Positions 3,035 through 62,400 of a stretch of DNA of 64,000 bases are shown here, piece by piece; the first letter of the stretch is position 1; every line of letters starts with the position of its first letter. The DNA is taken from the NCBI GenBank assembly GCA_963969365.1, contig OZ017758.1:2480001-2544000 (forward strand), written 5' to 3'. Position numbers and translations under genes: made by a program. The notes below the pieces were generated by a model. That model saw nothing but the letters and a program-made list of their open reading frames with translations, had not been told where the DNA came from and did not search any database. The stretch is from Asterochloris sp. CNOR1 (lineage: Eukaryota; Chlorophyta; Trebouxiophyceae; Trebouxiales; Trebouxiaceae).

Positions 3035-4196
3035 TGTGTAGTGCAGCGCTGTCCGGCCACCCGAGTTGGCTGCGTTGGGGTCTGCGTGCAGCTCCAGCAG
3101 GCGCTGTGCCACCTGATCATGCCCCGCGCTGACAGCAGACTGCAGCGGCGTCCATCCCTGCACTGCAGACATGCAGCAGGTGGCCCCTGGAACTGCGCGA
3201 CAGACACTTATTCAATTTTGCCTTGCAAAGCAGGCCCCAATTTGGCCTGCATCATGTCAGAACAGGGGAGCACTGTGCCTGAGCAGCATTGCAGCGGCGG
3301 TCATTCGTGCACTGCAGACATGCAGCAGGTGGCCCCGAACAGTGTGCGACAGACACCGTTTCGTTTTTGCCTAGCACCGCAGGCCCCATTCCAGCCTGCC
3401 GTCTGTCAGCACAGGGGAGCGCTGTGTCTGAGCAGCACTGCAGCAGCGTACAGCCCTGCACTGCAGGTGGACAAGCCAAAAGCTGGTCAGGTGGACTGCA
3501 GTAAGGTTTTGCTCTGTAACGCGGGCCTAGCCCCAGGCTGCAGTCTGCAAGCAGCAGCAAGCGCTGTGCCTGAGCAGCACTGCAGCGCAGTGCAGCCCTG
3601 CACTGTAGGGACACAGCATTGACTCGAGCAACCGCACTTCTGGCAGGCTACAGCATTTGTGAGCCTGCAGACTGTCATCAGCAGGGAGCAGTGCAGCAGT
3701 GCACTACCCAGCCCTGCAGGCACGCTGCAATGGCTTTATGAGCAGTCTGTGACTGCACTCACGGCAAACAGTGGTGGCTCCGGTCTGTCAGCAGCACTCT
3801 GTTGCCCAGCCTGGTTCACCTGTCAGCACAACCACTGCTGCAGCACGACTGCCAGACGCCTGCACCTGTGCTCTTCCTGCCTTGTTGCCAGTCACGGCCG
3901 GCACCCTGTGATCAAAGCTGTGCTTGCAGGCAATGTAGCGCTGCAGCAGCAGAGAGTGCTCTACCTGCTTCATGCTGGCTGCTTACCTCATCATCAGCAG
4001 TGTTCACGCTCTGTCCTGCGCCCTTTTGCACCAGAAAGTCAAGCAATTGTAGGTTGCCACTGGAAACTGCTGAATGGAGGAGGGTTCGCCCGTCTTCGTC
4101 TGTGCTTGAGATCAGGCTCTGCAGATTGCCCTGTTGATCCAAGGATTTGATGGCTTCAAGATCGCCCTTCCTGCACGCCTCTGCCACACTCTGCAT
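3035..4196 (-). pseudogene. PSMD10: Gankyrin-like ankyrin-repeat gene, 5' two exons only (truncated by the duplication)
   Basis: Exon 1 is 3987-4196 (starting ATG CAG AGT) and exon 2 is 3035-3157. Both introns fall in phase 0 and join as TADDE-GWTPLQ. The protein begins with a short helix and then repeats such as DGRTLLHSAVSSGNLQLLDF, GWTPLQSAVSAGHDQ and GGRTALHY. Repeat order and the DDxGWxPL joint resemble the proteasome assembly chaperone gankyrin (PSMD10/Nas6), which has seven repeats; fewer than three are present here. The gene ends because the duplicated unit starts at 2788. An intact parental copy is expected left of the window. It is head-to-head with the hydrolase gene. A generic ankyrin protein is the alternative. 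Confidence 0.7.
3142..3612. repeat. About 148-bp tandem repeat spanning the acceptor of gankyrin exon 2
   Basis: The first unit contains the true 3' splice site and the first codons of exon 2 (read on the - strand). Degenerate copies follow upstream in the intron near 3291, 3440 and 3582, spacing about 149, 149 and 142. Each copy keeps the stretch GAGCAGCA(C/T)TGCAGC and a TGCAG beside it, that is, a copy of the acceptor. Confidence 0.8.
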
Positions 4197-4454
4197 TGCT
4201 CTATCACTGCAGCTCAGGAAACAACCTGATTTTTCGTTCTAGCTAGATCGCATTGATGATGGCAGATGCTTGCCATCAGTGAGCAATCTTACTCAAGACA
4301 TTGCAGTCAAGGCCATGTGAGAGGCGAGGCAGCGTCACTGCACAGAAGGGGTACCAGAAGACAGCTTAAGCACACCCTGCCTATCCTGAACTTGTTGCTG
4401 CACAGGCATAGGTCAAGCTGTCAGCAACCCAGGATAGCTGCGTTCAGGCTTCTT

Positions 4455-6741
4455 ATGGCAGCAGCACAGGAGCAGAGCACAGTCACAGACAAAAGGGTGA
4501 CATTCCAGAATGCTAACCACGAGACGCTTGTGGGGCTGCTGCGCGACTGTGGCCACCAGGCCGCCATCCTCTGCCATGGCTGGAAGTCCACCAAGGAGCA
4601 GAGCATGTTCGCCCAACTGGCCAACAGGCTGGAGGCCGAGGGCCTCACAACCCTCCGCTTTGACTTCAGCGGCAATGGCGAGAGTGAGGGCGGCTTCCAC
4701 TATGGCAACTACAAAGCAGAGGTCAACCACAAATGCTGCAGCTTTTTGAGCGAGCCTGAATGTACTTGGGTCCCTGCACGGCGGGAGAGTGAAGTGCTTT
4801 ACGCTGCAGCACCTACAGTGCCTTGGCCACCTTGTAAAGCCAGCGATGTCAGTGCATGGCAGAAGCGGGACTGCATTTGCCGCGTAACGGAGCAGAGTTC
4901 AGGGGTGGAGTGCTGCAGCTGTTATGGGCCAGCCTGCCTGCAGCGTAAGGCTGGGGATGTGTGTAACGCCTTGCACCGATTGCATTGTCAGCAGTGTCAC
5001 TGTGCAGTGCGAGCACGGGGGCCACTCACCACAGCAGTCAAAAAGCACAGGCGGGACAGCAGCGTACCAGGAGGGACAGCTTCATGATAGGCTCAGCTGT
5101 CAGCTGGCGAGCCGCATGTGCTCTGCTGGATTGGTGCCATGATGTGCAGGTAGCCAGCAGCGTGGCCGGCAGGGGTCAAGGATGGCTTGGGCGTTGAGCT
5201 CTGCAGCAGCACATGTCAGTGATCACCTGCTCTTGCTGAGCAGACACGCCCTGGCTGCAAGCGCGTCCTCGGACTGCTGCAGGCTGAAGACCTGAGAGCT
5301 GCCATCCAGTTCCTGCAAGGCCAGGGCTTCAAGGTGGAAGCCATTCTAGGTGAGAGACTCGCCGGAATGTTTGGGCGCCCTTAGCTCTGCTGACTACGCC
5401 ATTCAGGCAAGTCCACAACAATGTAATTTGGCAGTCTCTCCAGTCTCAATCCTATTTGTGGCGAGGCCTTCATACATTAGCACTTATCAAATCTGGGCTC
5501 ACAACACCAGCAGAAGTTTTGTTGCATATTGCTGTGGCACATTTATCTTTGTTCAGTCAAGCCAGCTGACAACCTCCTGTGTCGTTGCCCTGCAGGTCAC
5601 AGCAAGGGTGGGGACTGCATGGTCACTTATGCAGCCAGGTACGACGACATCCCAAAAGTTGTCAACATTTCTGGGCGCTTCTGGTGCAATACAGGCAAGT
5701 CTGGCACTCCAAGTGCAGTGGCTTGGGCAGCTTCTATGAAGACAGCAAGCAAGGTTAGCAGAAGTTTACTGGCCACTGTGGCTTAAACTGCCCTGGGCAG
5801 TGACTTGCATGAACAGCAAGCTGCAGCTGCTCTGTCTGGCTGCCAGCAGGTGTCAAGTAGCCAGTAGAGGGCTGTCCGACATGCTGGAGTCTGTGTGTCA
5901 GCTGTCCAATGTGCCTCCAGCAATGTGGCACTGAGGAACTGGGCTGGCACTGGTGCAGCCATGTCGTGCTGCCCATGCCTGCGCCCCAACATTGGTCAGG
6001 GAATCTTGTATAACCAATCAGCCAAGCACATACAGACACCCATGCACATGCAGAGATGTACGGCAATTGTGTCAGATGCTGTGCACATCATCCCTTGTCT
6101 CTCATCTGCAGGCATCACTGAGCGCTTTGGAGAGGGCATCATCGACAAAGTCAAGGCTGAGGGGAGTGTGGAGCTCCCTGACGGGCCTCATGGACAGCCC
6201 TGGTCCCTCACAAATGAGGTGAGGGGTCGAGACCATCAGCACATCTCACTGTTCAACATGGCTTCCAGAAGAGCGGGGGCGTCCAAGGCCCGTCGATACT
6301 GTCTCGTCAAAGCTCAGCAGCTCACAATACTCTGCTCATTCAGTGAAGGGTCTCCCACAAGTGTAAGGCTTTTTCAGCACATTGTACTGATGTCAAGCAG
6401 ATTCACATCACTTCAAGCACATCTGGGGCTGAGCTGTTAAGGTGGTGGCCTGCTGCTTGCAGGATGTGCAGGAGCGCATCAACACTGACATGGAGGCCAA
6501 CTGCAAAGCCATCAAGCAGAGTCGCGTGCTCACAATCCATGGCAGCGATGACAAGACCATCTCTGTAGAGAATGCAGAGGAGTTCAGCAAATGGCTGCCT
6601 GACAACATGCTGCATGTGATCAAAGGTGCAGACCACAACTTCCAGCGGCAGGAACACACAGACGAGCTCATCAATACAGCTGTGAAGTTCATCACATCAC
6701 CTGAGCAACCCCCTGCTGCTCTTCAGCATGTGACACTTTAA
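4455..6741 (+). CDS. Serine hydrolase (alpha/beta hydrolase, S33-like), complete copy
   Basis: Five exons, 4455-4721, 5283-5349, 5596-5694, 6112-6218 and 6463-6741, join in phase to a 272-residue protein. The fold's marks are the early HGW oxyanion loop (AILCHGW), the nucleophile elbow GHSKGG with Ser114, an acid in HGSDD (about 209-210) and His238 in KGADHNF. This is the usual size for small S33/BAAT-like serine hydrolases; the substrate cannot be told. No transit peptide is seen from ATG 4455. An in-frame ATG at 4266 would add 63 residues, which are basic and Ser/Gln-rich and could be a targeting extension. The third intron uses a GC donor at 5695. The gene converges on the NUDIX gene with 155 bases between stops. 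Confidence 0.88.
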
Positions 6742-6896
6742 CATCTCATGAGCCTGTCATTCTTTAGGCAGTGTCCATGGCCCCTCCAAATGAGCAGCGC
6801 CCTCTTGCAGGGCCTTAGCGAGGGCATCTGCAGCACACCGTGACCGGACTCAGACATGCATGAAGATTTACTCTGTGCCAAGGCTGCAGCAGCACT

Positions 6897-8569
6897 TCAA
6901 CCACCTTCTGATTTCACATCGTCCCTCTCGCCGAGTCGTTGAAAGGCACTGCGCACAATTAGTTTATGGTCGAAGGCCAGAGGCGGAAGTTTTGTGACTG
7001 TCCACCATTCGGCATTGCTTGCATCATCCTGCAGCAGACACAGTATGATGGCTCCCCGCTGCAAGGCATGTGCCTACGTACAAAGTCAGAACACGAACTA
7101 ATGTCGCACCGCTGCTTTAACACCTAGCTCTGTGCTCGGAACTATGGCTGCATATGCGGCAGAGACTGCCCAACCCCGGGGGTCCCTGCACAGTGTTCAG
7201 TTTGCATTTAGGAGCCCAAAGTTGAGTGATGCATAGGTCGCCTTTCTGAAGATGCGCCAAACACTTAGGAGCAGGGCTCAAGCGCAGAGGCCAAGAGCAT
7301 GTAAGCATAGAGGTGTGAGTGCTCTCTAGGTCAGGCCATTGCGATACCCAGTCACAACATGCAGCCGCAACCCACACCATCAACATCAACGCAGTCAGGC
7401 AGCACCTCTGCAGCACCTGTGCAGAACATCGTGTAATGGTACATCATGCAGCAAGGCCATGCCAGTGTGTGGGGTGGCAGGTGGGCCCAGCAGCAGCAAT
7501 CCCACCCTTAACCCCCTGAGCCCCACCTGCCTGGGTCCCCAAAAGCTCCTATTTGAGTGAGCAGGACGTCCTTGGGGTTCACTGAGGTTTCCTCCTGCAG
7601 CTCTCGTGCTGCAGCATGGTCCAGGGGCTCGTTCTCATCAACAAAACCCCCCGGGAGGGCCCACTGCCCCTGCAGAGGGCAGCAGAGTGGTCGCTCTCAG
7701 ATGACACAATGCTCCACTGGGTCCACAGCAGAGCTGGTGACGGCCATTGCCTCCAGGCAGTTTGGACTGTTCTGCAGCACAACACCAAGAGCTCCAGCCT
7801 TCCTCAGCACAGTAATCTGTCTTCGGCAGCCAAGTCTCAAGCCCGTGGGTCACACTGGGGCTGGCATGGTCACAGAGCCCCCTGGCAAGTCAACCTCTGA
7901 GCTGCGACCTGCAGCACTGGGGAAAATGTCTGTTTGCAAAAAGCCCGCAGCACAGGGAGAATTGTCTGTTTACAGACTCCACCCCATTGGACCCCCTGCG
8001 GGCTGGCAATGCCTGCCTCCTGGCTTGCAGGGCCCCCTGCCCGTACATCACATGGTCCCTGCCCTCTGCAGCCCAGCGCCACCTGGCACAGGCCACTTTC
8101 AATGCAGTAAAGCATGCAGTGTCTGTCGAGGAGACAAGCTGCATGGGCAGGAGACCTGGAGCCGCCCTGTGACAGCCAGACTGCAGTTCACCTGGCAGGG
8201 AGGGTTCTTGCGCTGGATGAGCAGCACCTTTGGTGGCTGCTGCTTTGCCACTATCACTGCGTCCACTGTCATCCCTGGGCGAGGGTCTGCAAGGCACACG
8301 GCATAATCAGAGCTAACAGGAGAAGGAGGTGCACAGAACAAAATGGTGCATGACAGGTTCAGATCAGAACACTAGATGAACCTCCCCAGTAGCATTGACC
8401 TCCTGATCATGTATGTAAGCACAAGCAGTGTGAACTCACACTTGTAGGTGTATTCTCCAGGTTTGCTCATGCTAATCGCTCCCTTGTTTAATGCACGCCT
8501 CTGCTGGGGGGCGAGAGCTGGTGTCCAGATAACAAAGGTGGCCAGAAGGTGCCGTCTAGTCAGAAGCAT
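6897..8569 (-). CDS. NUDIX hydrolase, ADP-ribose pyrophosphatase-like
   Basis: Exons 8440-8569, 8192-8286, 7527-7669, 7110-7185 and 6897-7028 join in phase to 191 residues. The NUDIX box is complete: GGFVDEN-E, seven residues, then RELQEET. It is preceded by MTVDAVIVA and LLIQRK and followed by DPRGWAVSAAY and LPPLAFDH, the order seen in NUDIX enzymes that cleave ADP-ribose or related nucleoside diphosphates. A Thr replaces the last Gly of the box, as in several ADP-ribose-type enzymes. The N-terminal 35 residues are basic and could target an organelle. The right end of the 4.7-kb duplication falls inside the intron between exons 3 and 4, so this gene is whole while a second copy of its last two exons lies at 2178-2466. 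Confidence 0.88.
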
Positions 8570-8813
8570 GGGCTAAACTAATTATTATATGTGTTTAAGA
8601 TGGCTGCAATGCATGCCTATCGTGCCCAAGTTTGGATGTTGAGCCTAGTAATTCGAAGTCAGGCCTAGAAATTCAGTTGAATCTCACGTTGATGTTATCA
8701 ATGCTGTCTCAGCAGATGCCCAGCACTTGGGGTCAAAGGGAGACATGTGCAAAATTGAACAGAATGCTTGAAGACTGGCTTGCTAAAGCTGCGTGGGCGC
8801 ATGGCTGACAAAT

Positions 8814-14852
<6,039 letters not shown>

Positions 14853-17800: not shown

Positions 17801-17897
17801 TGGTATCTCTGCATACAGGCTCAATAAGGTCCTGGAAGAGGCCATGCTGACCTTGCGAAGTAATCATGATCTTCAACAGCTTGTAGGAGCATTCTAG
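14853..17897 (+). CDS. Sigma-70 family RNA polymerase sigma factor, plastid-type (first of two)
   Basis: Exons 14853-15001, 15154-15304, 15403-15555, 15737-16140, 16455-16623, 16840-17097, 17346-17693 and 17787-17897 join in phase to 580 residues. A long Ser/Gln/Arg-rich N-terminus fits a plastid transit peptide. A region 1.2-like helix (ICWEHIQQQKHLERQRAALQ) precedes region 2, recognised by EGLVHAALQRF, DLKLAGLRGL, KWDPERG and WYIRDHISK, the counterparts of the core-binding and -10-melting segments. Region 3 follows (HRHSREPSEVELLRLTGF), then region 4 (VQMLYGLNQYGP and RRLGISAYRLNKVLEEAM). The helix that reads the -35 element is poorly conserved. The intron after 17097 has a GC donor. Predicted role: promoter recognition for the plastid-encoded polymerase. 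Confidence 0.85.
16201..16375. repeat. 100-bp tandem repeat in an intron of the first sigma gene
   Basis: Two diverged units, 16201-16275 and 16301-16375, share TCTTGGC, TTTGCAC(C/T)CA and GAGGGAC(G/T)TCAG blocks. They lie between exons 4 and 5 and do not touch an exon edge. Confidence 0.7.
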
Positions 17898-18258
17898 GAC
17901 AGCTGACCAGGAACTGAATTGTTTCGGCTCCCCAACCACAGATCCCCATGCTGCACCCCTCTTATGCACTGCAATTTTTGGCATCGTGAATGGTTTCAGG
18001 CGCAGAGTTGACATGAATTGTCATGACAGTAATGTTGTGGTGTTACACACGGCGCATTGCTGGCCAGCTGTGCGCACTTGCCGAAATGTTGATGATGGCG
18101 AGGGTCAAGCTTCGAGCATACTCCGGGCTAAGCTCAGCAAGCCGGAACAATTCCCAGATCTGAGCCTGCCATGCCAGCCTCCACAGGCACAGTGCCCATG
18201 CAGCAGCAGGTAGGATGCACATCCTGAGCATGTCATTGAGCAGCATCCTGTATTATAA

Positions 18259-23545: not shown

Positions 23546-23565
23546 TGGCCCTCTTGCTCCCCCTC

Positions 23566-43536: not shown

Positions 43537-43731
43537 GCTGGTCTGGGAAGCTCACAGCTGCTGCTGTGCAGGGTCATGTGCAGTCACCAGCTGAATTGTC
43601 TCAGTTGGAAAACTGTACAATCACCCAAAGATAACAACCCAGACATGCAGTTCCAGCTGTGAATGCTCAGTCATGTGTTTCTACATTTGTTCTCAGATGC
43701 TGCATGCATCACGACAGGCTGTCTTTCTGCC
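43537..43731. promoter_or_regulatory. Short divergent promoter between the coiled-coil gene and the next + gene
   Basis: The start codons at 43536 (-) and 43732 (+) are 195 bases apart, so both promoters must be here. No core element was recognised by eye. An in-frame ATG at 43663 would narrow the gap. Confidence 0.4.
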
Positions 43732-46379
43732 ATGTTGCCATCAGATAGTCTGCTCTCCTTCTTGCTGGGCACACGTCGCCCACTGAAAGGCCCCAACCCA
43801 GCAAACCTCCTTGCACTGCTGGGGTACAACTTTGAGAGCAAGAGCTCCCGGCCTGAGCACACTGCCATGCCTGATGTCATCAAGGGCCTGGCAGTGGCAA
43901 GGGAGAGCGCATACTTCAAGCAGGAACAGGTCTGTATGTTCCTAGCTGCCTAGTGGCTGGATCAATGCAATCAACGTGTGGACCCAAGCTTGCGTCTCTG
44001 TTTGGCTGCCAGTCCTGACCATCAGTTGAACAACATCTGCAGCTCCCATTGTCATGTGTTAGCCATGAGGGCACATAGACTGCAATGTCCTGGCATGCAG
44101 GAGGTGGATCTGCAGCGTTACAGGACAAGGCTAGTGAGCCTAGGGAAGCTGCAGGACGCTGCAGGAGCCAATCTGCGGCCGCGGCGGGAGCAATCCTTCC
44201 AGGAGAGCATCCGTGCCTTTGAGGGTGAGTTGTGCTGCAGAAGGGCCACTAGGCAGCATGAAAGCTACGTCCCCAACCAAGGGCTGCGTCACTGACTTGT
44301 ACAGCTCCAGCACTGTGCGGCAGCAGCATACATAGCTGCATCATGCAGTCTTTACGTCAGGGGGGCTGTGTATCTGAAGCTCTGAACCTGCCAGGGCAGC
44401 CAGTGCGCCCTGCCTGATTTTGAAGCTGCCGGCGCAGCTTGCATGACGCACAGCCTTGAACGCCCTGCAGTGCTGCCGGAGGTGCTGCAGCAGCAGGCGC
44501 GCTTGGATGACCCCCAGGCAGCAGCGCGGCGAGATTTCATCAGGTGGGCGCCGTGTAAGGCTATGCTGCACCACTGGCGCTTCCTGCCCTGCCCCCTGGT
44601 GCCACCCCTAAGCGCAGTCCAGGGCTTGTTCAAGCCTGCCAGTCTTGCAGGCTGGGCAGATCTTTCATTTTCTGCTCACTGGCGCCTGCAGCCTGTGGAG
44701 CAATCCCATCTGGCTGGACACTTTGAGCTGAGCTGCACATCTCCTCACACCTCCACAGCCTGCCCTCCCACCCAATCAGTCACTAGTCATACCCCTGGCT
44801 GCAGGCGCATCAAGGCCATGCCGGCAAAGCTCTCCGAGGCTGAGCTGATCCGCTATCGCTCCAGCGTGTATGGGGTGGCGGCCACCGTGGGTCATGTTCC
44901 AAGAATGCACCTAGGCGAGTTGACCACCTGCATCCTGTGCTTCCAAGCTGTCTTGCTGTGTGCCCCACCCTGGGCCAGGGCAGGCAAGCTGACTACACCG
45001 CATATTCTTCATGTGCAGTGCGGCCAAAGATCACTGCACCAGCCTCAGGATCCATTGTTTTCCTTTCAGAATTGCTAAGTTGCGCCACCCTGTGCTGCAC
45101 TGTGGAGCTGAAGTTTAGGTTTCAAACCACCTCGTTTCATTTTCTGCAGGCCGGAACCGGTGGTATGTCACGCCGCATGCTGCCAGCGCAGTGCCTGCCG
45201 TGGCCCTCTCCCCTGAGGCTTCCGAAATGGCCAGCCGCGCGTACTCGACAGGTGTGACTGCGACAGTATGCGTGATGGGCTGCACCATCTGCTTTGTCAG
45301 GGATGGCCAGCAGCTAACTGATGATAGGGATGGCAGTGACACGCCAGCACGAGCTGCGGGGGCCATTGAGAGCATTGATGTGAGACTGCATCTGATTCGC
45401 TCTTCCCTGAGTGCTGCTTGAGTTGACCATGCCAATGTAGGTCGTCAATAAAGGGGGCCGTCAATACAGGGGTTGGCTCCCTCAGGCCCTCTGCTTGCTC
45501 TGCTTTGCAGGCATCCACTTGCTGGTATAAGACAGTTGATCAAGAGCAAGCTCTTTTCTAAAAGAGTAAACCCCGGACCCTGCAGGTGTTCGCTCGCTGG
45601 TCTACGGCTCCATGCTGGGGTTCCTGGGAGTGGCTGTGCTGGGCACCGTGGCGGCCCAGGCTGCAGGCATCACCAGCCTGCAGGATCTGCAGGGCCTGGG
45701 CCAGGAGGGACACCCCATTGCCCAGGCCCTGCAGACCCGTTTCGCTGGGCTGCGGGAGCGTGTGCAGGCGAGCGATGCCTGTGTCCCTCATGCATAGCAT
45801 CAGGGCTCCCTGCAAGAAGTCTGGTGGCAACAAGACAGGAGAGGAGGCTGGCAAGCGTGCGTTTGCAGAAAAGGGGCATCTGCTGGGCTGCCAGATGGTG
45901 TGCAGGTCATTATGTGGGCTTGCCCTACACAACTGGGCCAGTACAGTTGGCATGCAGTTCTGGGGCAGGGATATTTGCTGCAGATGCATCAGCACACAGC
46001 AGGCGTGGGCAAATTCAGTTGCTTTTCCTGCTTTGGCATGTTGGGTTGCGTCCAGCCAGCAGCACATTGATGCAACAATCTGCTCTGTCGGTGCTGCCTT
46101 TGCTGTCTCCGGCGGGCCTGAAGGGTTCCCAACAAGGATTAAACTGCTCTGCAGAAGCTGCTGCCCCAGCCCAAATCTCTGGAGCCAGCAGCAGCTGTGG
46201 CCTTGGCAACCCCAGGGACTGTGGTGCCTACTCTTGCTGCTGGCGATGGAGCACTGAGTCCTTTGGGCCAATCTGCGCCACAGACTAGCGAGCTTAGACG
46301 ACGATTGACGCGGCGCTTTAACCCTGCTGCCTCTCAATCAGGTAGTGCTCCCAGCTCCAGGGCGGCTGATATTCTTTGA
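43732..46379 (+). CDS. Unrecognised protein with one membrane segment
   Basis: Exons 43732-43929, 44101-44224, 44471-44543, 44805-44914, 45586-45761 and 46155-46379 join in phase to about 301 residues. The N-terminal half is helical and charged (LARESAYFKQEQ-like, QEVDLQRYRTRLVSLGKLQD, EVLQQQARLDDPQAAARRDF, LSEAELIRYRSSVYG). A hydrophobic stretch, YGSMLGFLGVAVLGTVAAQ, looks like a single membrane span. The tail is Pro/Ala/Ser-rich and ends with basic LRRRLTRRF. The intron after 44914 would need a GC donor (TAG|GCGAGT). I recognise no family. Start could also be the in-frame ATG at 43663. Possibly a green-lineage-specific organelle or endomembrane protein. Confidence 0.6.
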
Positions 46380-46853: not shown

Positions 46854-49800
46854 CTAGTTTAAGGCAAGCAGGCGCCTGCCTGCTGTAGCTAGTGTTGCTG
46901 GTGGCGGCGATGATGCCTCCTGGTACGTTACCCGGTAAACTGCCCCAACCTGCAGCAGAATGTGACTGTTGCACATTTTGGTCCTGAAGTTGCCCTACAA
47001 TGGAGTACACCCAATCAAAGCCCATCTGAATGTGGTAGCACCTGAAAGGTCGTCCAAGAAGGGGCTCCACAGAGCATACACAATGCCACAGCTCACCTGG
47101 TCATCTGAAACGAGCAGAGACCCGTCATTCAGGACCAGCACATCAGCTGGGCGCCCTGCAAACAAGAAAAGCGGTCATGAGATAAGAAGGTTCTGTGAAC
47201 AACCTTGTGGTGCATGTACAGCAGTGTTGTCAGGCAGGCCATAGACACAGGTTAGAACTGCTGCTTTGTCAGGTGACAACAAGGGACTCACCCCAGACAC
47301 TGCCAGTGCTCTCAGTCAGGAAGCCCTGGATGAAGGGCTCGTAGCTGATGGCATTGCCCTCATCATCAACAACAAGCTGCATGACCCTGCAGCAGCAGGT
47401 TGCAGGGCCTCAAACCTGCTGCAGTACTTTGCTGGGGGTTTCAATGTGTGGCAGCTGAGCAGGGCGACTGGAAGCCCACATGAGGAGACAGACATCATCT
47501 CAAAAGACATCCTGTGCTGCAGGAAATATACCTGTAGCCAATCTTCTGGTTGCTGGGCACGTCCCAACTGCCATGCTGGGCGTTGAAGATGGTGTTGTTG
47601 GTGTAGTTGGAGGGGAAGCTGAACACTGCAGAACGAACCACTGTCTCAAGTCAAACACAGCCGTGCTGTGATCTAAGATTGTGGAAAATGATATGTAGGT
47701 ACTGCAGGATGATTGCAACAACTGTTGCTGTGGCCAGAGCTGGCACAAAGGACGAGGAGCTGGCAGCCAGACTGAAGCAACTTTGGAGTCAAGGACTAGG
47801 CAGCCCACCCCTGAGCTGAGATCGTCAAGCAAACATTGACAACTACATGTTGATGAGATAGCATGCCAGGTTTTGAACAGGAACAACGGCATGTCTCACC
47901 TGCTGGGTCATAGAAGCGCAAGCCCAGTGTGGCCACATGGGGGCCCAGGGGTTGCACGACAGGCTCCGTGTTGACTGCACAGCAGCAGGTAGCTGGTCAT
48001 TCAGCAGCCTCACAGATGCTTTAAAGCTACTCAAGTACAATTGGTTGTCTCAGCACACAAGCACAGACCTAGACCTGACTGGCAAAGGACAAGCTAGCAG
48101 CCCCTCAGCGGGGCAAAGGCACATGGCAAAAGGCTCTGCTTAGCTTGAAACACTGCACACAGGTTGCTACGCAAGTGACTGTACGTAAAGCATGCTTGCA
48201 CCAGGTGCGGTTCAAAAGCAGGGGACAAAAGGACACCTTGAGGCGACACCTAGCTGCAGCCTGTCTCACCCTCACAGTACTGGAACTGAGCCTGGGGAGT
48301 TGCGTTGGGCTCGGGTGTGAAGGTGACATTCGGGTCCACTATCACTGACTGCATGCCCACCGTGCGCAGGTCATCAGGGCCAAAGCCCTCGCTGCAGTGA
48401 GACAGGTCAAGTCAGCAAGGGATGGCGCCTGAGCGGCCTGTAGCCCTCGATCCGGCCTGTCCCCAGGACCAGCAGGTGACCCAGCGGGTGACAATTTCCA
48501 GCCTGCACAGTCCAGCAGGTGACAAGCTCCAGCCTGCACAGTCCAGCAATCGTGATAGCCAGCACTGACTGACGCAGGGAGCTGCATGGACCCTCAGGAG
48601 CCTGCGAGCGGCTGCGGAGCCTGCGAGCAGCTACGGAGCCTGCACAGCGCACAGCCAGTAGAGTGCTGGTGCATCAGCTGCAACCCCATTGCATGAGGCC
48701 CACAGCCTAAACCAGAGCCTGACATGCTTGCGCTTGCCTGTAGCTTGAGCTCGCCTGTAGCTTGAGTTCAACCCCCACAGCTGCAGCTTCCCCATAGCAT
48801 GAGCTTCCCCCAAGGCTACAGTTTCCCCACAACTAGAGCTTCTCCACAGCTGGACCGTCCCTCAGAGCACAAGCTAGCTGCAACCTCACTGAGCCGCATC
48901 ACAAACCGGCACAGAAGCAAGCAGGCCCTCACATATCGCAGTAGGGGAAGCCAAAGTTCTCCTGCACAGGGGCTGTTCCGATGTAGTCGTCCGGGTGGCT
49001 GGTGGTGTAGGTCACATTGCCAATGTCATCACGACCATTGTTGCTGAAGTAGAAGTCGCCTGTGCTGGGCTGGAAGGCCATGCCAACCACGTTGCGGATG
49101 CCTGCAGGCTCAAGCCAGAGTGTCAGCATCACATGGGTAAAAGCTGTGCAAAGGACAATGCTGCAGTGCCCACACCTTGCATCACAGCAGCTGTTGGGGG
49201 AGCATGGACTTATCAGTCCAATAGAGAGGCAAGCAATCTGCCCAAATAGGCATCGAGATGCAACATATATGTGCAAGCGCATGTGTGGTGCTGTTTCAGA
49301 GGTGCAACAGGAGGCAGGCAAGATGAAGGACTGGCCTCTGCACAGATGATGCTTGGTTCATCATCCTGTTGTGCCACAGTGCAGAGGGCTCCAAAGCTGG
49401 TCAACTAGGTTGAGCCACCAGATCTGATTGAGAGCCTCAAGTATGATCTCTGTTAACAGCGACCAGTGCCAGGATGAGGACACCTTGCCCCACAAGGGGG
49501 CCAGCTGGCCTTGACCACCATGACCGTGCCCAACAAGAAGGGGCAGGTTGTGCCCACCTTCCACCCAGACCTCCAGACCTGACCCATCCAGGTTCATGCG
49601 CAGGATTTTGCCAAAGGTGACATTTGTGCCGTTGGCGAGGATGATGCCGCTGGGGCCTGGGATGCCGATGTTAAAGGGGGTCCCCAGATTGAAGTAAAGC
49701 TGCAGCAGAGGCAAGGCAGCTGTGACAGCACGATGAGACATGGCGCAGGACTGCCTGATGCCCTGTGCAGGCAATGAGTCACTCAGGGAGAGAGCTCTGC

Positions 49801-51654: not shown

Positions 51655-51823
51655 ACTAGCAGACAGCGGCAGAGTTGTGCAAGTTTGTGCAGAAACAGGC
51701 CCTTTTGTGGGTTATTACGAGCTCTCTATCCTGTTTATCAATAGATTGCGTAACGTCCAGTATAGAGTGCCATGTCACCTTTGCATCCAGATTCCTGGAA
51801 CCCTTTCAATGTTCCCCAATGGC
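51655..51823. promoter_or_regulatory. Compact divergent promoter between the dehydrogenase and LSF2 genes
   Basis: The start codons at 51654 (-) and 51824 (+) are 169 bases apart. The region is AT-richer than its flanks and contains ATCCTGTTTATCAATAG near 51728. Both genes act on carbohydrate, which makes shared control possible but unproven. Confidence 0.45.
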
Positions 51824-54770
51824 ATGATGCGCCCTTTGCACTACCAGCAGCCATGGAGTCAGCGATGCATGGTTGCTGTGACCCCACTGCTCGTTCAGCC
51901 ACTGCCCAGGCTTTCCCACTTCACACCCAGCAGAGCCCCTCGATCTCAGCTGATATGCGGAGCCGCTGGAATGAGCTCTGCTACATACAACGAGCAGATG
52001 AAGGCTGCCATGGGGTGGGAAAAGGCAGATCCCTTCGAGTACCACTATGAAAGGTATGCAGTTCTGGGGACCAAATGCACCTGTGATCAGTACCCCTTAA
52101 TGCTGTAGATGCAATGTCAATGATGCCTGATGCTCTGCAGAGGAATCTATGCTCATGAGGTCCACCCAAATCTAGTGCGCTGCCTACATTAGGCTTGCGA
52201 TGCCATCTGAGTGTGGATCTGACAGCGTGCATTAGATGGTGGCGTTCAAGACGCTGCAGTCCTGATACAGGCAACAGGACAGCTTTCAGCAGCTCAGCAT
52301 TGTGCAGAGGCAGCACGTCTTCCCTTCCCCAGCCTGAAATGCTGTCTTCTGATGCAGCTGTGTGGATCGCAGCCCAGGCATGCAGAGGACATAGATGAGC
52401 TCAAGCAGGAGCTGTCAGTCACTGCTGTGCTCAATGTGAGTCAGCTTTCAACACTGCATCTGCTGCTCAGCAGCCTGTGGTGTGATGTGAGGCTTAGCTG
52501 CTCACTGAGACTCCCCAAAGCTGTCTGCAGCTTCAACAGGATAAGGACTTTGAGAACTGGCAGGTGCAGTGCGTGCAGAGACAGACATGTTTGCGCTTAG
52601 GTGCTGTGCTGTGCCGCGTCATGCCTGTTCTCTTTTGTGCTGTGCTTTGCTGGCTGCGTCTGGAGCCTGGCCTGTATACCGCAAAATAGAAGCTGCTTGA
52701 GCAAGCCAGCACAGCAGGCAGCTGCGCCTCCCAGCTGCGGCGATGCAGTGTTGCTGGTTCACTCACCTCTTCTGCTGCTTGCAGGTGGACTTTCACAGCG
52801 TCTTCTGGCATGCCAAGGAGCTGGGCATTGACATTGTCCGCTGCCCGGTGAGTACCTAGCTGCCCTCACTGAACTGACATGTTGCATGCACTGAACTACA
52901 AACAGCTGCATTTAGGTGAACAGCATGCACTAACCAGCAAGCATGGCAATACTGCGTCCCTGGTGGATGAACCTCCACCACTTCCAGGTTGGCCCAAAGA
53001 GAGGCATGGCCCACACAGGGTCAACACTGAATGAGGCACATTTTCTACTTTGGAACCACACACAATCATGCCCGGTTTCAGGGGAAGCTGTGGGGCGCTC
53101 CTTGGAGGTTTGCTGCACACACTATCCGGCTCGACCTTGACTGGCCCTGCACCCCCATCTGAGACCTCTGTCGAAGCCTCGCAGGTGCTGTCCCTTCCAT
53201 ACCTGAAATTCTGAGGGTGCATCCCACCATCCCATGGCCAGGCTGGCCTGCATTTGGCATTCTTTCAAACCCAGCTGCCACTGTCATGCTGCAGGCAAGG
53301 GATGCCAGGCCCTTGGTCTCGGTGTGCAGCCCTCTGCCTTACTCACCCAGTGACACAAATTATTGCGGTCCAGAAGTTCTGGCGCAAGTGCCCTGTTGCC
53401 GATGAAAGTGGACATTCCCTTTACATTTGCTTTGGTGGCTCGTCCATGCAGGCAGTGTAGAACCTCCTGCGCGGTGCGGTGCAGACAGTGCCTTTGCTTG
53501 TTCTCCTCTGCCAGCACAGCCAGTGGGCCACAATGGCAGCATTTACCCCGTCAAGCATCTCCACTGCCTGCGTCAGTGGACTTCAACTGCTATCCCATGC
53601 GCAACATCCTGCCCCAGGATGCCACCTTGTGCACGAGCGCCCACAGCACTACCTCTCAAAACAAGCCTTCTGGGTTTCACCTGGAAAGGCAGTCATACGC
53701 TCAATCAACCCCTCCGCCCTGCCACTGCAGGCGGTGGACTTTGACCCCCACTCCCTGCGCAACATCCTGCCTCAGGCCGCCGCCATCGTGCATGAGCGCC
53801 TGCAGCGTGGGGACCGCCTGTACGTGCACTGCACAGCGGGGCTGGGGCGCGCGCCGGCTGTGTGCATTGCCTACCTCTACTGGTTCCAGGGGATGACCCT
53901 AGACGCGGTAAGTCCCTGCTTGCTGTGCAGTGGCAGCTGTGTGGCTGTACATGCAAAAATGTGTCTGTTGATAGCCTGCGGCAGCGGTCACGTGATTCAG
54001 GGCATGGTCCCGGAGGGTTGCATGAGTTCTGCTTGCTCAGCTGGTTTTCGGGCGGCAGCTCGTGCGCTGCATGCTTGGCATTCCGTCAAGTAGCCTACGC
54101 ACGTACTCCGGAAGATGTGCAGTTCTTGAGAGTGGTTACAGCCTGCTGCGCTGACAGCCAGTCAATGTACTGGCCAACAGAGCTAGGCCTCTGCATATTG
54201 TTTGCTTCTGGGCCCAGCGCGAGCACCTGAGACACATCTGGCAGGTATGGCACAGACTAAACCTCGCTGGCCTGTTGTCACTCAGACTGCGCATGCCTGC
54301 CACCCCTGTACAGGCTGCCTGTTGCCTGCTGGTCACCTCAAAAGCCCCCAATGCTCATGCCTTCAATGCAGGAGTTGATGTTTCTCTTGCGTGCTGGTGA
54401 CTCAAAGAGCGCCTGCATGCCTCACACAACTGTGTGGTCTCCCACCTGCGTTGCAGTCTAGGTGACTGCAAAGGTTGCCAGCGGCCAGCCCGCTCTATCT
54501 CATCTGCACGCTCTCAGAGCTAGTGCCAGCTCAACTCCAGTCTACAGGTCGGCTCAGACTGCACGACCTTGCCTGCAGGCCTACAAGCACCTGACGGACA
54601 TCCGCCCATGCGGCCCCAACAAAAATGCAATTCGCGGAGCCACCTATGACCTCTTGGATGGGCGCCCCTTTGATGAGTTTCAGCACCTCCCAGAGCATGC
54701 CTGGACAGACCTGAGCCAGCAGCAGCGCACTGACATACAGCAGGCTGTGATGTCCTCCAAACATGGCTGA
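51824..54770 (+). CDS. LSF2: Phosphoglucan phosphatase LSF2 (starch metabolism, plastid)
   Basis: Exons 51824-52053, 52141-52174, 52358-52435, 52531-52563, 52785-52847, 53731-53907 and 54579-54770 join in phase to 268 residues. A transit-peptide-like start (PRLSHFTPSRAPRSQLICGA) precedes YNEQMKAAMGWEKADPFEYH, GSQPRHAEDIDELKQE and LNLQQDKDFENWQVDF. The dual-specificity phosphatase signature HCTAGLGRAP contains Cys180 and Arg186 (CX5R). The C-terminal block RPCGPNKNAIRGATYDLL is typical of LSF2 and SEX4. No carbohydrate-binding module 48 follows, which separates LSF2 from SEX4. LSF2 removes C3-phosphate from starch during its breakdown. In-frame ATGs at 51809 and 51869 are alternative starts. 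Confidence 0.94.
53560..53815. repeat. Acceptor-side echo of LSF2 exon 6
   Basis: The exon start (GTGGACTTTGACCCCCACTC and GCGCAACATCCTGCCTCAGG) is preceded 158 bases upstream by a copy, GTGGACTTCAACTGCTATCC and GCGCAACATCCTGCCCCAGG, continuing to GTGCACGAGCGCC. The copy has a CTGCCTGCGTCAG in place of the true CACTGCAGGCG acceptor. Confidence 0.9.
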
Positions 54771-56488: not shown

Positions 56489-59400
56489 ATGGAATCCACC
56501 AGGTTGGGGCGCTTTGCCTTCAATGCAGCCGCACAGGAGGCCGCTCACCACCCCCCGCCTCAGCAGCGCCCCCACTTCCTGCCGCCGTTTGCCAATGAAC
56601 GCAACAAGGCGATAGATGATCTGCTGGTGCAGCTGGAGACTGAGCTGGAGGTCACAGGCAAGCCCTGCAGCATGATGTGGACTGATGTGGTCTGGGACAT
56701 GCGGCCTTGCACAGGACATCTTGCAATGCAGACATGGCCAGGCCTGACACCTGGACCTGGACCTGGGGACTCATGGTGCACATGCATCATGGCTGCACCC
56801 GCCACACTGCTGGTGTGAATGGCAGCACAGTTTGTGCACCAAGCTTGCTGTCAGCACTGTATGCTGCAAGGCATCCTCCATTGCACCGCTTCAGCCCAGC
56901 GGCCTTCCAAGGACATGTACCTTTTGGCATGCTGCTGCCTCGCAAAGCTGCTCAGTGCAGTATTAGTGTCGCCTGTTCCTCAGAGCATACACGAGGAGCG
57001 TCACGTCGCCAATGGCAGAAGCCAGGCCTCTTCCAGGCACACAAACCTTGTCGCTCACTCAGCCGCGGTCACTGCCAGAGAATCGTCAGTTGCTGGACAT
57101 GCAAGCTCAGTCACATGGACTCACGCAGCTACTACCTGGCCGCAGATGCAGCCATTGCCGGGCAGGACTTGCTTGATGCGATGGCTGAAGCTCAGGCATG
57201 CAAGTGCGCTCTCAAGTTTGCTCTCTGTTGCAGACGTGGCCATTGAGGAGAATAAGGACCGCCTGGGGGTCATGCAAGAGCACTTGGCCAATGTGAACCA
57301 GGAGCTGGCCTACACGCAGAGCCGCTTCACTGCCAAGCAGCATGAGCTAGAGACAGAGTCGCACCTGAGGCAGCTGGCCAAGCGGGAGACGGTGAGGCGA
57401 GGCCAGGCTCCGGCTCCGGATGGGCTCATGAGACGCCCCAGTCATATCCAAGCATGCCCACTTCATGGTGGTGCCAGTACAGTGCAGGAGCACAGTGGCA
57501 CAGGGCTGATGAGATGCTTTGCCATGCTCAAGCAGGTCTATATTGCCATTGTGCCAGCGCATTCCTGGGGCACAGGGGCATAGGATATGCCTTTGGGCAG
57601 AGCTACTGTGTATGACTTTTGTCAGACCTGCAGAGAACGACGGATACCTTTTAGGGGCTTGCTGCATTGCACAGCCGCTGCGCGCTCTGGCGGCAGTTAT
57701 GTGTGACATTGGGCTTTAGGCGGCCGCCATCAGCTGCGGCTCCTCTTAGGCCCCTCTGCAACATGTGATAGTGCTGCAGAGACATCTTGACAAACCTGCA
57801 GAGCGTCTGCCTGCCCAGCAGTAGCCATCTGAGTCCTGTGTTGGCCAAGTGACCTGGATAATTGATTGCTGCAGGGACGCTTGACTAAGGATGTGGAGCG
57901 CCTGCACGCCCAGCAGCAGCAGCTGACAGATAAGCTGGACTCGCTGCACACGGAGATCTATCGCGGCAACGAGCGCATGGACCAGTTCAAGCTGGTCATG
58001 AACTGGAACCAGGAGGAGTTTGCGCAATGGGCACTGGCGGCAAAGCAGAAGGTGGGTCTGGTGCTCGCGTGTGGCCAAAACTGAGCGACTCTGTGCAGAG
58101 TCAGCAGAGTGGACGCACCAGCAGAGTCACGCCTCACAGCCGCTGGCTGGCAGATGCTGTAGGCTGGCAGGCCGGAGCCAGTGCATCTGTCAAGATAACC
58201 GCCACAGAGAAGTGTGTGCTGTGGGCACTGACTGTGAGGCCACGCGTGTCTAGCTTTTCTTTACATGTGGTGGTGTGGCCCCACAGGCATTTGCACGCTG
58301 GGCACTGACACCATAGAATGTTGGCAGCAGCAGCAAACCTGCCAGTGCACTATACCAGCTCAGCACATTGCGCAGTGGGCACTGGGAGCCAAAGCATGAG
58401 GGGCGCAGTGTGGTTCTGCGCACAGGGTGGCTTGCTCAGGTGATATGCTGCAGCTTTCGGTGCCAGCAGCCATCAGCGCCTGTGGCCCTGCTGCAGTACA
58501 GCAACGAAGAGAATGCCTCAAGCTGCAGCACTTCTGCAAAGGAGGCGGTGATCTGCTCTCCCCAACCTGCGAGAGGGGGACATTCTTACTCCAGAGCAGT
58601 CCACAGCTGCTTATCTGAGACCAAGTTGTGAGTGACAATGCCGGCAACCTGGATCGAGACTGCTGGTACACACTGGGGCCAGTCTCAGAGTTGTACTCTT
58701 ATGGTCCAGGTGCAAACGCCAGCAGCAGCCACACTGCCATGCCTTCAAGTCAGGCTGGACCCATGTCAACATCTCCATGTCGTCTGCCAGCGAGAACTGG
58801 CCGTCATCTCAGTTGACCATTGTTGTTGCTCAGTGTGATGCCCGTGCCTGCAGGAGGAGGACAATCTCACTCTGGAGCAGTATCAGCGGCAGGATGAGGT
58901 CCGCATCAGGGACCTGACAGCTGAGCTGGAGAAGCTCTCCAAGCAGGTGTGGCAGCAATGGTCCTGTATGAATTCAGCTGATCTCAGACTGGCACAACCA
59001 ATGAGCCACCTGCCAGTGCTGTCCTCAGCTGCCTGCCAGCATTTACAGCTTCACAAGTGTAAGCGCTGCTGTCCTGCTGCCAGGCCGCACGCACGTGCAG
59101 CACTCTTGGCTGTTCAGGTGCCCAAGCTGCAAATCCTCCTCCTACAGCGCAGCTCTCTCTGATGGCCTGCCGCCTGGGTGTCACCTGGCTGAACATGCCC
59201 TTACCTGCCGATGCCTGCCATGTTGCAAGTTGTGCAAGCTGGGCAGTCCCGCTGCCCAGGTCGCACAGGCAAGTATCTTTGTTGTCCTCCTACCCAGGCC
59301 ACACATGCAGATGGCTGTGGGTGCCACCCCTGACGCTGCCGTGCAGGTGCAAGTGCAGCGCAAAGCTGTTGCCGATGAGGTCACAGAGACGCAGGCTGCC

Positions 59401-62400
59401 CAGATTGAGCTGGACACGACGGCCGAGGAGTTCCGCAACCTGCACAAGGAGCGGCAGGGGTTGCTGGCACAGTGGGATGACACCATTCAGGGCATGCGGC
59501 GGTGAGCCTGCTGCAATGTGGCAGGCCTGCGCAGCCAGCTTTGCCACTGCATAGATGCTATGATGCCAGGCTGATAGTCAGCCAGGGCAGGATTTGCTGG
59601 CACTGAGGTGCTGAGCAGTGGCTGGAACAGCCCTTGAGCGCTGCCAGGGCACTGGGGTCCCTGCAGGCATGTTGGACTGGGGGCGGGACTGAGTGCAGTG
59701 GCAGAGCTGGCTGGCAAAATGCTGCTTGGCTCTCTCTCGCACTGTGTTGCATCATGTGGTCAAATACCATCTGGGGCATGCAGCAGTAAGCCAGCAGCTT
59801 TAGTTCCTGGGACGCTGGCCGATCAGCAGGCAACAGGCATCTCTGCGGCGCCTGAAGGCCAGCATGCCTGTTGGGGTGCAGGCGGGATGATGCCATCCAG
59901 AGCGCCGCGGAGGCCTTTGCCGCCAAGAAGGCTGAGCTCAGGGAGCTGAAGGCAGCGCTGGATGCTCAGGCCAACTTCCTGGACAATGAGCAGGCCAACA
60001 ACCAGGAGGTGAGCCAGCTTTATGTCTCATGGCCCTCGGAACAAAGGGCATTCCTGTGCAATGAGCAGGCCATGAAGGGAGGCCAAAAGCTCCATCACTT
60101 CCAGTGCCCTGGGAGGAGTGGAAAGATGCGCATACGAATGCAGATCTGTCCCACCGTGTTCTGGTCGCAGTCGTAAGGGGGCAGTGCTCACCACTGCATG
60201 CAGGGCACACGTAACTGCAGGACCGGCCTGCTGATTCAGGGGTGGGCAGAGAAACTCTCAAGCTGCCAGTGAATGCTCCAGGAGGGGACTCTGGCAGCAC
60301 AACGCTGTCCTGCCTGCAATAATGGGCGCACTCCAAGCTGCAGCAGAGCGGCCCAGCAGATGCAATGAGCCAGCAGTCAAAGCGCCATTGGTCCAGGTCG
60401 TGCACTCCTGCAGTCAGCCGGTACCACACATTGCTGTCCTGCCTGTAGACAGAGGCCCGCATTCAGCTGCAAGAGCGTAAGGTCGGCAGCCTGCGGGAGG
60501 TGCACGCCCAGGAGCAGCAGGAGCTGGACCAGGCCCAGGATGCAGTGGAGCTGCTGAAGAATACAGCAGCCAAGGCGCAGGAGGAGCTGGCTGCCCAGCA
60601 GACAGCCAATGCCAACTCCAAGTAAGCAGATCCCACCCAGCAGGAGTAAGCGACTCCATCCATTCATGGATGGCAGTTTGACGCCCGTCAGCAGCCCCCT
60701 AGTCAGCAGTGCTGCTTTCAGGCAGCATGAGCGGGGCAGACATGGTGCCCAAGCCATTCAGAGACTTCCCTGCTTGGTGGTGTCTCACAGGCGTTCCTGT
60801 CTGGACCAGAACTCACCCATCATGCAGCTCCTTGTGGTGCACTTGACCTCTGCTGCATCATTGGTCAGTGTGTGAACCCCGGCAGTCTGCCTACCCAGGG
60901 TGCTGGCAGTCTGCATGGCCAACCAGCAGCTGGCTGCAGCGGCATTTGCATTGAGCCTGATCACACGTTTACTCCAGAAGGGTTGCCACAAGCAGCAAGC
61001 TGCACAGTATGCAGCACCATGTGCAGTACAGCTGCCAGGACCTGCGTGCTGCCTGGAGGAGACGCCGTGCAGCAGAGGCGCAGAGCCCTGGCGGCAATGC
61101 TTTGCGTCTCAGTGGGGCTTGTGTTATGTGCAGGGATGCCATGCGGGAGCACCAGGCCTAAGAATACGGAGCACGCCCCACAGCAGCTGCATGCTGCCTG
61201 CAGGACTGCCATGAAGCAATCTCAGAGGGCCCTGGAGGCAATGTACTGCAGCCAATCAGACATGTCTGCTGTCTGGAGAGGGGCTTTGCAGCAGGTGCAG
61301 CCAAGACTCATGGCCTGTGCATTACCGCTCAAGGTGACTGGCCTGATGCCTGCAGGAACACCATGCAGCAGAAGTGCTTGGGGCAGCGCAGTGCAGATGA
61401 CGGGGACTGATTGCTGCTCCCAGAGCTGTGTCCATGGTATATTCGGCGATCACGGCATGTCCAGAGCAGCACAGGTGACTGACCCAGCATGCTGCCTGCA
61501 GGAGCTCCGTGCAGCAAAAACGCAAGGCCCTGAAGGCGATGCAGCGCAAATTTGCGGCGCTGCAGGAGCGCCTGAAGAATGAGCTGGCTGCCCTGGACAC
61601 CACTGAGGCGCGAGTGCGCCACCTGGATGGCCTGCGCAAGGTGGGGAGCGCCAGCAGTATGACCTGGCATGTTGCCGGCGCAGCACCTGCAGTGACATCG
61701 GCGTTTGCAATTGTTCACCTCCTTATCTCCCAGCCTGTGAGAGAGACCATGACAGTGGGCTCTCCCATACTCAGCTTCCTTCTTGAAGATGCAGTTGCTG
61801 GCTGTGCCTGCTGACTGCATTTGCAGAGACTAACATGCAGTGGTTGCCCCAGCGTCTGGCAGTCAACATGGCAACTTCAAGGCCGCATTACAAGGGCTGC
61901 GTGCCTGGCCAGCATTCACAATCAGCTGCACATCTTAAAGAGTCAGTGGGCCGAGCCAGCTGATCACTGAGACGCAGACAAACCACGATGCCCTAGGCTG
62001 AGGCCGTGCGCGCCTGATCAAAGTCTGGAAGGCAGCGCAGACCATGGGCGCACAGCATCTCCCATGTTGTGCATTGGGCTGACCCAGCACTGTCCAGCTG
62101 CCGTGCAAGCTGAGGCTCCTACATGGATGCCATCCAGGCCACAGCGGGGAGCTGCACACACATCTCCATATTGAGACTCACCCCTCTCGCTCTGACCTGC
62201 AGGCTGAGGCCGCCCGCCTGGACGCGGTTCGGAAGGAGATGCATGTCCTCAAGGGCCAGCAGGTCAAGCAGGGACAGGAGCTGTTCACGCTGCGCAATGC
62301 AGAGAAGGAGATGATCTCAGAGATCGCGGGCGGGCAGGCGCAGCACAAGAATGTGGCTGAGCGCATCCGCAAGCTGGATGAAAAGGTGAGGGCCACCTCT

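Follow-up and report, generated by a model that had tools for sequence, protein, structure and literature searches.

Exon-edge echoes in the introns of Asterochloris sp. CNOR1 are probably neutral debris of short local duplications

Introduction

Are splice junctions preferred sources of the sequence copies that lie in the adjoining introns, or do such copies arise anywhere and only seem tied to exon edges? The question is raised by a window of 64,000 nucleotides of Asterochloris sp. CNOR1 (contig OZ017758.1, positions 2,480,001 to 2,544,000, forward strand; coordinates below count from its first letter), for which an earlier note had described degenerate copies of exon edges (here echoes) in seven genes. 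Our analysis supports the interpretation given there in part. We think it probable that short local direct duplications arise regardless of junctions and that the echoes are neutral debris of this process.

Results and Discussion

Exon-edge echoes, gene by gene

Alignments revealed copied segments that contain an exon edge, its splice site and adjoining intron. Each of the seven genes named previously carries at least one echo, strong in the gankyrin-like, second sigma, aldo/keto reductase (AKR), LSF2 and CCDC39 genes, clear in the coiled-coil gene and weak in ENH1. It is also confirmed that donors as well as acceptors are echoed, on either strand, and that the copies are direct, diverged and located in the intron next to the edge:

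3134-3735, minus strand: gankyrin-like array, an ankyrin-repeat exon's acceptor edge in four to five degenerate copies, with steps of 149, 142 and about 111 bp
21453-21533, plus strand: echo of the second sigma acceptor 21594 (source 21570-21649), 61/81 identities, lag 117
21899-22041, plus strand: two echoes of the second sigma donor 21834 (source 21801-21839 and the following intron), 73/98 and 62/91 identities, lags 98 and 202
24900-24923, minus strand: weak candidate echo of the ENH1-like acceptor 24806 (source 24787-24810), 24 bp with a score of 16, which is the scan's noise level
29527-29679, plus strand: two echoes of the AKR acceptor 29729 (source 29702-29765), 41/52 and 43/52 identities, lags 86 and 172
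29880-29937, plus strand: echo of the AKR donor 29843 (source 29809-29868), 48/60 identities, lag 71
42939-43013, minus strand: echo of donor 43185 of the predicted coiled-coil gene (source 43159-43233), 75 bp, 67%, lag 220; gapped 54/77
53561-53647, plus strand: echo of the LSF2-like acceptor 53731 (source 53722-53806), gapped 66/88 identities, lag about 160
57756-57825, plus strand: moderate echo of the CCDC39 acceptor 57875 (source 57854-57920), gapped 57/78 identities
58566-58600, plus strand: moderate echo of the CCDC39 acceptor 58854 (source 58847-58881), 80% over 35 bp, lag 281
61017-61373, plus strand: three echoes of the CCDC39 acceptor 61502 (source about 61461-61548), steps of about 145-150 bp

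The gankyrin-like exon spans about 3035-3157; its edge was read by eye, and there are ankyrin Pfam hits for this gene. TRF gives the array a period of 149 with 2.2 copies at 80% over 3134-3466, and its pairs have lags of 149, 298 and 440. The AKR exon is backed by Pfam and PDB matches and the LSF2-like exon by 4kyq; the LSF2-like source consists of 9 bp of intron, the remainder being exon, and its echo reaches a z of 11.1 against other introns. No gap interrupts the alignment to Chlamydomonas FAP59 around the CCDC39 exon edge at 61502, and for AKR, LSF2 and CCDC39 the outer junctions agree with the protein alignments. Two exons, 21594-21834 (second sigma) and 29729-29843 (AKR), are echoed at both edges, and the spacers of the AKR acceptor echoes lack homology to their flanks. 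The ENH1-like intron has a z of 6.2 in the intron-shuffle test, and further weak candidates with scores of 16-17 (40512, 60448, 62202 and 59501) fall in a score range where some chance pairs are expected. At a score of at least 16 and a lag of at least 40, 16 of the 198 predicted exon edges are covered.

Local direct repeats in the window

Ungapped direct pairs were scored at lags of 12-600 bp, with distant lags in the same window as control. At a score of at least 16, the window contains 85 local direct pairs vs 4 at distant lags, an approximately 20-fold excess, so that about 4 of the 85 are expected by chance; inverted local pairs number 5. Degenerate minisatellites and intronic tandem repeats are likewise in direct orientation, and the array-like cases at 3134-3735, 41982-42114 and 21801-22041 resemble them; unlike minisatellites, many pairs here have two copies only, with an unrelated spacer. 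The description of the echoes as tandem is not confirmed: among 40 pairs with a score of at least 20 and a lag of at least 40, the spacer is shorter than 20 bp in 7, and among the remaining 33 it resembles a flank (p<=0.02) in 12 but not in 21. Pairs with an identity of at least 0.9 are scarce (6/71). A lag-autocorrelation table showed a small near-lag excess that could not be told apart from local heterogeneity in base composition, and it was not used.

Three duplications within introns, to which no strand is assigned, illustrate the range:

41982-42114: tandem duplication without an exon edge, period 53, 81% identity, also detected by TRF
32922-33001: head-to-tail pair (40 + 40 bp), 90% identity
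16198-16389: near-tandem pair, lag 100, 66% identity

The first exemplifies this process away from junctions. Both members of a pair lie inside an intron in 26 of the 98 predicted introns, and recognisable copies (score of at least 16) cover 4491 of 50,668 non-exonic bases (9%), figures that do not bear out the earlier claim that local duplication is a main source of intron growth.

Are exon edges favoured?

Exon edges were compared with mid-exon positions, as the earlier note had proposed, and with mid-intron positions, a control that it had not proposed, after removal of all introns from the second hydrolase copy and of those shorter than 120 bp. When matches to the own intron were judged against other introns (p<=0.0133), echoes were found at 22/181 edges, 1/72 mid-exon and 135/1439 mid-intron positions. 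The comparison of edge with mid-exon thus came out in favour of edges, for this window, and it had the same direction in two other gene models and in homology-supported genes only; the preference proposed in the earlier note holds against mid-exon, but it is not established against mid-intron. The bootstrap difference between edge and mid-intron at z>=3 is 0.020 (95% interval -0.035 to 0.071), and because this interval spans zero, the splice junction is not demonstrated to be a hotspot.

Splice junctions might nevertheless be hotspots at which a transcription- or splicing-coupled process, e.g., template switching driven by R-loops or nicks close to the ends of exons, preferentially copies edges into the adjoining intron. 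The double echoes of the two exons above are in line with this, as is the spacing of many echoes, which do not lie head-to-tail (21/33 spacers without flank homology). Edges were echoed about twice as often as mid-intron positions at z>=5 (0.094 vs 0.050), with a difference interval of -0.001 to 0.091 that just includes zero. Matches are also fewer far from any edge: beyond 600 bp from a predicted edge the rate is 0.031 (554 positions) vs 0.112 for the whole scan, a scarcity that uniform landing of duplications does not predict. In a random-rotation test run at five threshold settings, a score of at least 14 gave 16 covered acceptors vs 8.4 expected (P=0.003) and 29 edge-touching pairs vs 20.6 expected (P=0.037), each in one of the five settings; at a score of at least 16 and a lag of at least 40, acceptors numbered 10 vs 6.6 expected (P=0.08), donor edges 6 vs 6.6 and exon-exon pairs 2 vs 4.8. 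Against a hotspot, donors showed no excess in any of the five settings, the excess of edges over mid-intron is insignificant at z>=3, and the 50 bp of intron next to the splice site show no enrichment (7/182 in the same comparison, with a shorter search target). An earlier control, restricted to the longer intron side (p<=0.01), agrees on the last point, with 9/170 for the intronic 50 bp flanking splice sites vs 11/170 for mid-intron; it gave 11/96 for acceptor edges, 8/97 for donor edges, 2/76 for mid-exon, 7/85 for the last 50 bp and 2/85 for the first 50 bp. We consider a junction hotspot unlikely. It is just as doubtful, if not slightly more so, that local templated copying by transcription- or splicing-coupled repair draws preferentially on junctions, chiefly on acceptors; exons would in that case steadily supply their introns with decoy splice sites and so make them longer.

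Decay of the copies and further alternatives

The echoes look like neutrally decaying sequence. Mismatches are flat by codon position (78/318, 69/308 and 84/307) and CpG has decayed in the intron copy (33 exon CpGs read TG/CA in the echo, against 8 changes in reverse), overlapping pairs being counted more than once in these tallies. The echoed AG or GT is retained in 10/19 cases, with a neutral expectation of 0.60 (ungapped pairs with a score of at least 16 over predicted edges only, gankyrin and LSF2 excluded, overlapping pairs again counted repeatedly). Retention is thus no higher than neutral, and splice signals kept as selected decoys were rejected. The impression that many echoes keep GT or TGCAG is accordingly not upheld; TGCAG occurs 410 times in sense and 389 times in antisense in the 98 predicted introns.

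The echoes could alternatively be degenerate duplicated exons, alternative or dead, from tandem exon duplication. The ankyrin and coiled-coil genes encode repetitive proteins and some echoes cover tens of exon bases, yet copying of a whole exon would include its middle, where echoes are nearly absent (1/72), and the near-even mismatches across codon positions also speak against it; we regard this origin as improbable. Still less credit is due to an artefact of composition, in which CTGCAG/CAG-rich, CpG-poor introns mimic acceptor edges by chance: TGCAG is indeed frequent in sense introns (410 vs 48 expected from base composition), but the far-lag and inverted controls come from the same sequence and yield 4 and 5 pairs, compared with 85 local direct ones. 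This reading was rejected for the main set; composition may account for the weakest candidates (scores 16-17).

A further possibility, that introns are born when AGGT-bearing exon segments are duplicated in tandem (the Rogers model) and that the echoes are what is left of this, is the least probable of these alternatives. AG- or GT-bearing duplicates do occur near junctions, but the model demands that the surroundings of donor and acceptor match at a lag equal to the intron length (+/-10 bp). This register reached a score of at least 12 in none of the 98 predicted introns (null fraction 0.007); the best score, 11, was reached by one of them (null 0.010). The model was thus rejected for these introns, and the link to AGGT intron gain drawn in the earlier note is not supported. 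Nor did the 64-kb window show dispersed introner-like elements, which would place similar sequences in the introns of different genes: blastn pairs of at least 38 bits numbered 2 at separations of >=5 kb and 17 at separations of <500 bp.

A neutral account and its simulation

On the account that we favour, introns would gain short local direct duplications, tandem or near-tandem, whose lags range from about 15 bp to several hundred. Replication slippage, template switching or unequal exchange is the probable source, and the position of splice junctions would have no influence on where the duplications land. Those falling within an exon would alter the protein and be purged; one in an intron, or across a junction whose outer splice site is still used, would leave the mRNA unchanged and could drift. 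The copy would then decay neutrally, with CpG deamination prominent, and the exon member would be frozen, so that such a pair should diverge about half as fast and stay visible longer. This slower divergence could make echoes seem tied to exon edges. In 22 hand-chosen echoes identity was higher on the exon side in 14, lower in 7 and equal in 1, which fits a frozen exon copy; for the strongest gankyrin echo the order is reversed, with 0.97 on the intron side and 0.53 on the exon side.

One simulation setting, in which duplicates were old and exons almost frozen, gave an edge rate of 0.121 at z>=3, close to the observed 21/181 (0.116), but it puts mid-exon echoes at 8%, against 1/72 in the data, and makes mid-intron echoes too rare (0.060 vs 0.096 observed), and no setting fits the edge, mid-exon and mid-intron rates together. 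Simulated edges were below mid-intron in all of nine settings and above it in 3/6 settings of a further series (z>=3). Constant-rate simulations yielded 24% and 34% young pairs (identity of at least 0.9) vs 6/71 observed. Spaced copying, simulated in two of the nine settings, gave mid-exon rates about equal to edge rates, contrary to the data.

Comparison with known systems

Internal gene duplications that cross exon-intron boundaries were described by Gao and Lynch 2009 (as cited in PMC3443670 and PMC4974935). As in those cases, a junction-containing segment is duplicated locally in direct orientation; however, the cases cited are new introns or duplicated exons, whereas here the copies lie inside existing introns and a new intron is not evident. 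In the potato RdRp gene, an intron was gained through a duplication spanning the intron-exon boundary (PMC4974935). There too the duplication spans an acceptor junction and the splice signals are copied, but according to that source the new intron arose via a cryptic donor, whereas here the original junction is apparently still used and the copy decays. Intron gain by AGGT tandem duplication (Rogers 1989; Hellsten 2011; both after PMC3443670) shares with our case duplicates bearing splice-like words, but not a repeat lag equal to the intron length, found here in 0/98 predicted introns. Among the open-licence papers that our searches listed, no title or abstract beginning dealt with echoes of exon edges in the introns of algae. 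The scans for relatives gave no match, for the desaturase in viral contigs and for CCDC39 in viral and genome contigs.

Implications

The neutral account offers a simple explanation of how long introns here may slowly grow. It also calls for caution: repeats touching an exon should stay recognisable longer than intron-internal ones, and links between duplication and splice sites therefore need mid-intron and age-matched controls. The residual excess at edges, if upheld genome-wide and with age-matched controls, would indicate a splicing-linked source of intron growth.

Gene models

Genes were predicted with a self-trained coding model and a splice-aware gene finder, which returned 108 exons (median about 118 bp) across 10 models in the window and 98 introns (median 406 bp), with predicted donors mostly GTGAG or GTGGG and the acceptor TGCAG in 86 of the 98 introns. 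The finder fused some neighbours (the two hydrolase copies; the two sigma genes; the coiled-coil gene and the acetamidase; LSF2 and CCDC39), so that the 98 "introns" include some few that are actually intergenic, and the gankyrin-like gene is absent from its models. Many models were backed by protein searches (Pfam or structure matches).

Predicted products and their protein-search support
CCDC39: Pfam, E 6e-153; Chlamydomonas FAP59 (7ju4), E 3e-142
Dual-specificity phosphatase: nearest Arabidopsis LSF2 (4kyq), E 2e-40
Aldo/keto reductase (AKR): supported
Acetamidase/formamidase: supported
Glucose/sorbosone dehydrogenase: supported
NUDIX: supported
Rubredoxin (ENH1-like): supported
Flavin amine-oxidase family protein: supported
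Alpha/beta hydrolase: supported
Ankyrin repeats: supported
Sigma-70: sub-threshold matches

The flavin amine-oxidase family protein we take to be a carotenoid (phytoene-type) desaturase; the predicted protein at 43732-45797 found no match in the Pfam search. Codon bias, gene content and the FAP59 match fit a green-algal source. A predicted 17-residue CCDC39 exon (58497-58547) is doubtful, because the alignment to Chlamydomonas FAP59 shows no counterpart, and is either a false exon or a lineage-specific insert. Positions 1-2787 and 4720-7506 form a near-perfect direct duplication (lag, the distance between pair members, 4719; single mismatch at 615) that bears the alpha/beta hydrolase gene and runs up to the left end of the window, which would reflect either a recent duplication of the gene in tandem or a duplication introduced by the assembly.

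Local direct repeats

Ungapped pairs scoring at least 16 numbered 85 at lags of 12-600 bp, versus 4 on a matching number of far diagonals and 5 inverted local pairs in the window; composition is therefore no explanation, and the orientation is direct. Pair frequency tends to fall with growing lag, and at lags of at least 40 identity was 65-90% in 63 of 71 pairs, reaching 90% in six. Both members of a pair lie inside 26 of the 98 predicted introns, and the load is uneven: 13 of 54 clusters fall in CCDC39 (7 kb) and three in the desaturase gene (6 kb). The earlier note had called the copies tandem, a description that does not fit every pair: among 40 pairs scoring at least 20, the spacer is shorter than 20 bp in seven, and in the other 33 it resembles a flank in 12, as an aged tandem copy would, but is unlike the flanks in 21. 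Non-tandem spacing could stem from ageing, later insertions or template switching.

The glucose/sorbosone dehydrogenase-like gene has four short minisatellites (periods 14-35 bp) clustered at 48481-48864 within a single predicted intron, and there is an 84-bp direct repeat (22783-23225; 71%, lag 359) on either side of a small predicted exon, 22977-23057, of the second sigma gene.

Placement relative to exon edges

Echoes, that is, diverged direct copies of exon-edge segments inside the adjoining intron, had been noted in seven genes; alignments bore them out in the gankyrin-like (exon edge placed by eye from sequence), second sigma, AKR, LSF2, CCDC39 and coiled-coil genes, and that of ENH1 is a weak candidate. 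Exons 21594-21834 and 29729-29843 are echoed at both edges (spacings 117/98 and 86/71 bp), which suggests locally duplication-prone spots.

To test placement, the exon annotation was rotated 400 times relative to the repeat positions, with five settings of the thresholds. At score at least 16 and lag at least 40, 10 acceptor edges were covered versus 6.6 expected (P 0.08), with 6 donors versus 6.6 and 2 exon-exon pairs versus 4.8; at score at least 14 there were 16 acceptors versus 8.4 (P 0.003), 6 donors versus 8.6 and 29 edge-touching pairs versus 20.6 (P 0.037). Mid-exon coverage was in deficit at score at least 18 (202 bases versus 504 expected, P 0.003). Acceptor coverage per copy at score at least 14 was higher for near pairs (0.091) than for far pairs (0.031), the near copies also being longer (38 versus 27 bp). 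In a sliding scan the match fraction was 0.15-0.17 over the 30 exon bases that follow acceptors and 0.09-0.13 over the 30 that precede donors, 0.15-0.18 and 0.09-0.15 in intron sequence 100-300 bp from acceptors and donors, respectively, 0.00-0.08 in exon sequence 50-150 bp from an edge, and 0.031 (554 positions) more than 600 bp from every edge.

The fairest test compared 50-bp segments with their own intron, other introns serving as the null. At p<=0.0133 matches were found for 13/90 acceptor-side and 9/91 donor-side exon edges, 1/72 mid-exon and 135/1439 mid-intron segments, and 4/91 first and 3/91 last 50 bp of introns. The claimed edge preference stands against mid-exon (difference 0.10, 0.055 to 0.149, at z>=3), but the intervals for the difference from mid-intron include zero (0.020, -0.035 to 0.071; at z>=5, 0.045, -0.001 to 0.091). 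Two alternative gene models gave, at z>=3, 23/209 and 20/162 for edges, 95/1172 and 111/1084 for mid-intron and 1/74 and 1/68 for mid-exon, and homology-supported genes only gave 13/108, 59/640 and 1/43.

Decay of the intron copies

Where one pair member is exonic, free drift would be expected in the intron member alone. Over 22 echoes, hand-picked at fixed ungapped lags, exon-side identity exceeded intron-side identity in 14, fell below it in seven and equalled it in one (means 0.66 and 0.51); the best gankyrin echo is reversed, its intron side being better kept. Exon CpGs align with TG or CA of the echo in 33 instances, versus eight in the opposite direction, and mismatches are spread nearly evenly over codon positions. 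Of the two members, the exon is therefore the conserved one, and the echo resembles non-coding debris. However, the equal mean identities of exon-intron (0.79) and intron-intron pairs (0.78), both truncated by the detection threshold, tell against a simple freezing account. Splice words, said to be kept in many echoes, survive as AG in 7/12 and GT in 3/7, which is decay of a neutral type.

Introns of the window have a CpG observed/expected ratio of 0.33 versus 0.52 in exons, with TpG/CpA in excess, suggesting CpG methylation and decay. Intron TGCAG and CTGCAG occur at about 9 and 15 times the base-composition expectation, nearly equally on both strands, with about four TGCAG per intron, real acceptor included.

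Origin of the echoes

The AGGT (Rogers) model, intron birth by tandem duplication of AGGT-bearing exon segments, expects donor and acceptor surroundings to be alike when offset by the length of the intron; such register similarity was found in none of the 98 predicted introns, and this origin, to which the earlier note likened the echoes, is rejected. According to a review (PMC3443670) and a report on potato (PMC4974935), introns are known to arise by tandem duplication, also when it crosses the junction of intron and exon.

Simulations of randomly placed duplications decaying neutrally covered 15 settings, in runs of four (two with spaced copies), five and six; in tandem settings, units wholly exonic or spanning a whole intron were discarded. 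When the exon rate was set to 0.2-0.3 of neutral, simulated edges fell below mid-intron in all nine settings of the first two runs; with nearly frozen exons (0.05) they exceeded it in 3/6 at z>=3 and 5/6 at z>=5. The setting nearest on edges gave 0.121 for edges, 0.060 for mid-intron and 0.083 for mid-exon, versus 0.116, 0.096 and 0.014 observed. Random placement can therefore reach the observed edge rate; none of the 15 settings fitted all three rates simultaneously, a misfit that a mixture of ages and a shorter unit length could plausibly mend. There may be an edge excess, of up to about two-fold.

A comparative study in Chlamydomonas (PMC8226300) describes conspicuously long introns, with an unknown driver. 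For this Asterochloris window, the low rate far from edges and the intron-end counts lower our confidence slightly, and we regard it as reasonably probable that local direct duplications land regardless of splice junctions, those disrupting exons being purged and the intron copies decaying neutrally.
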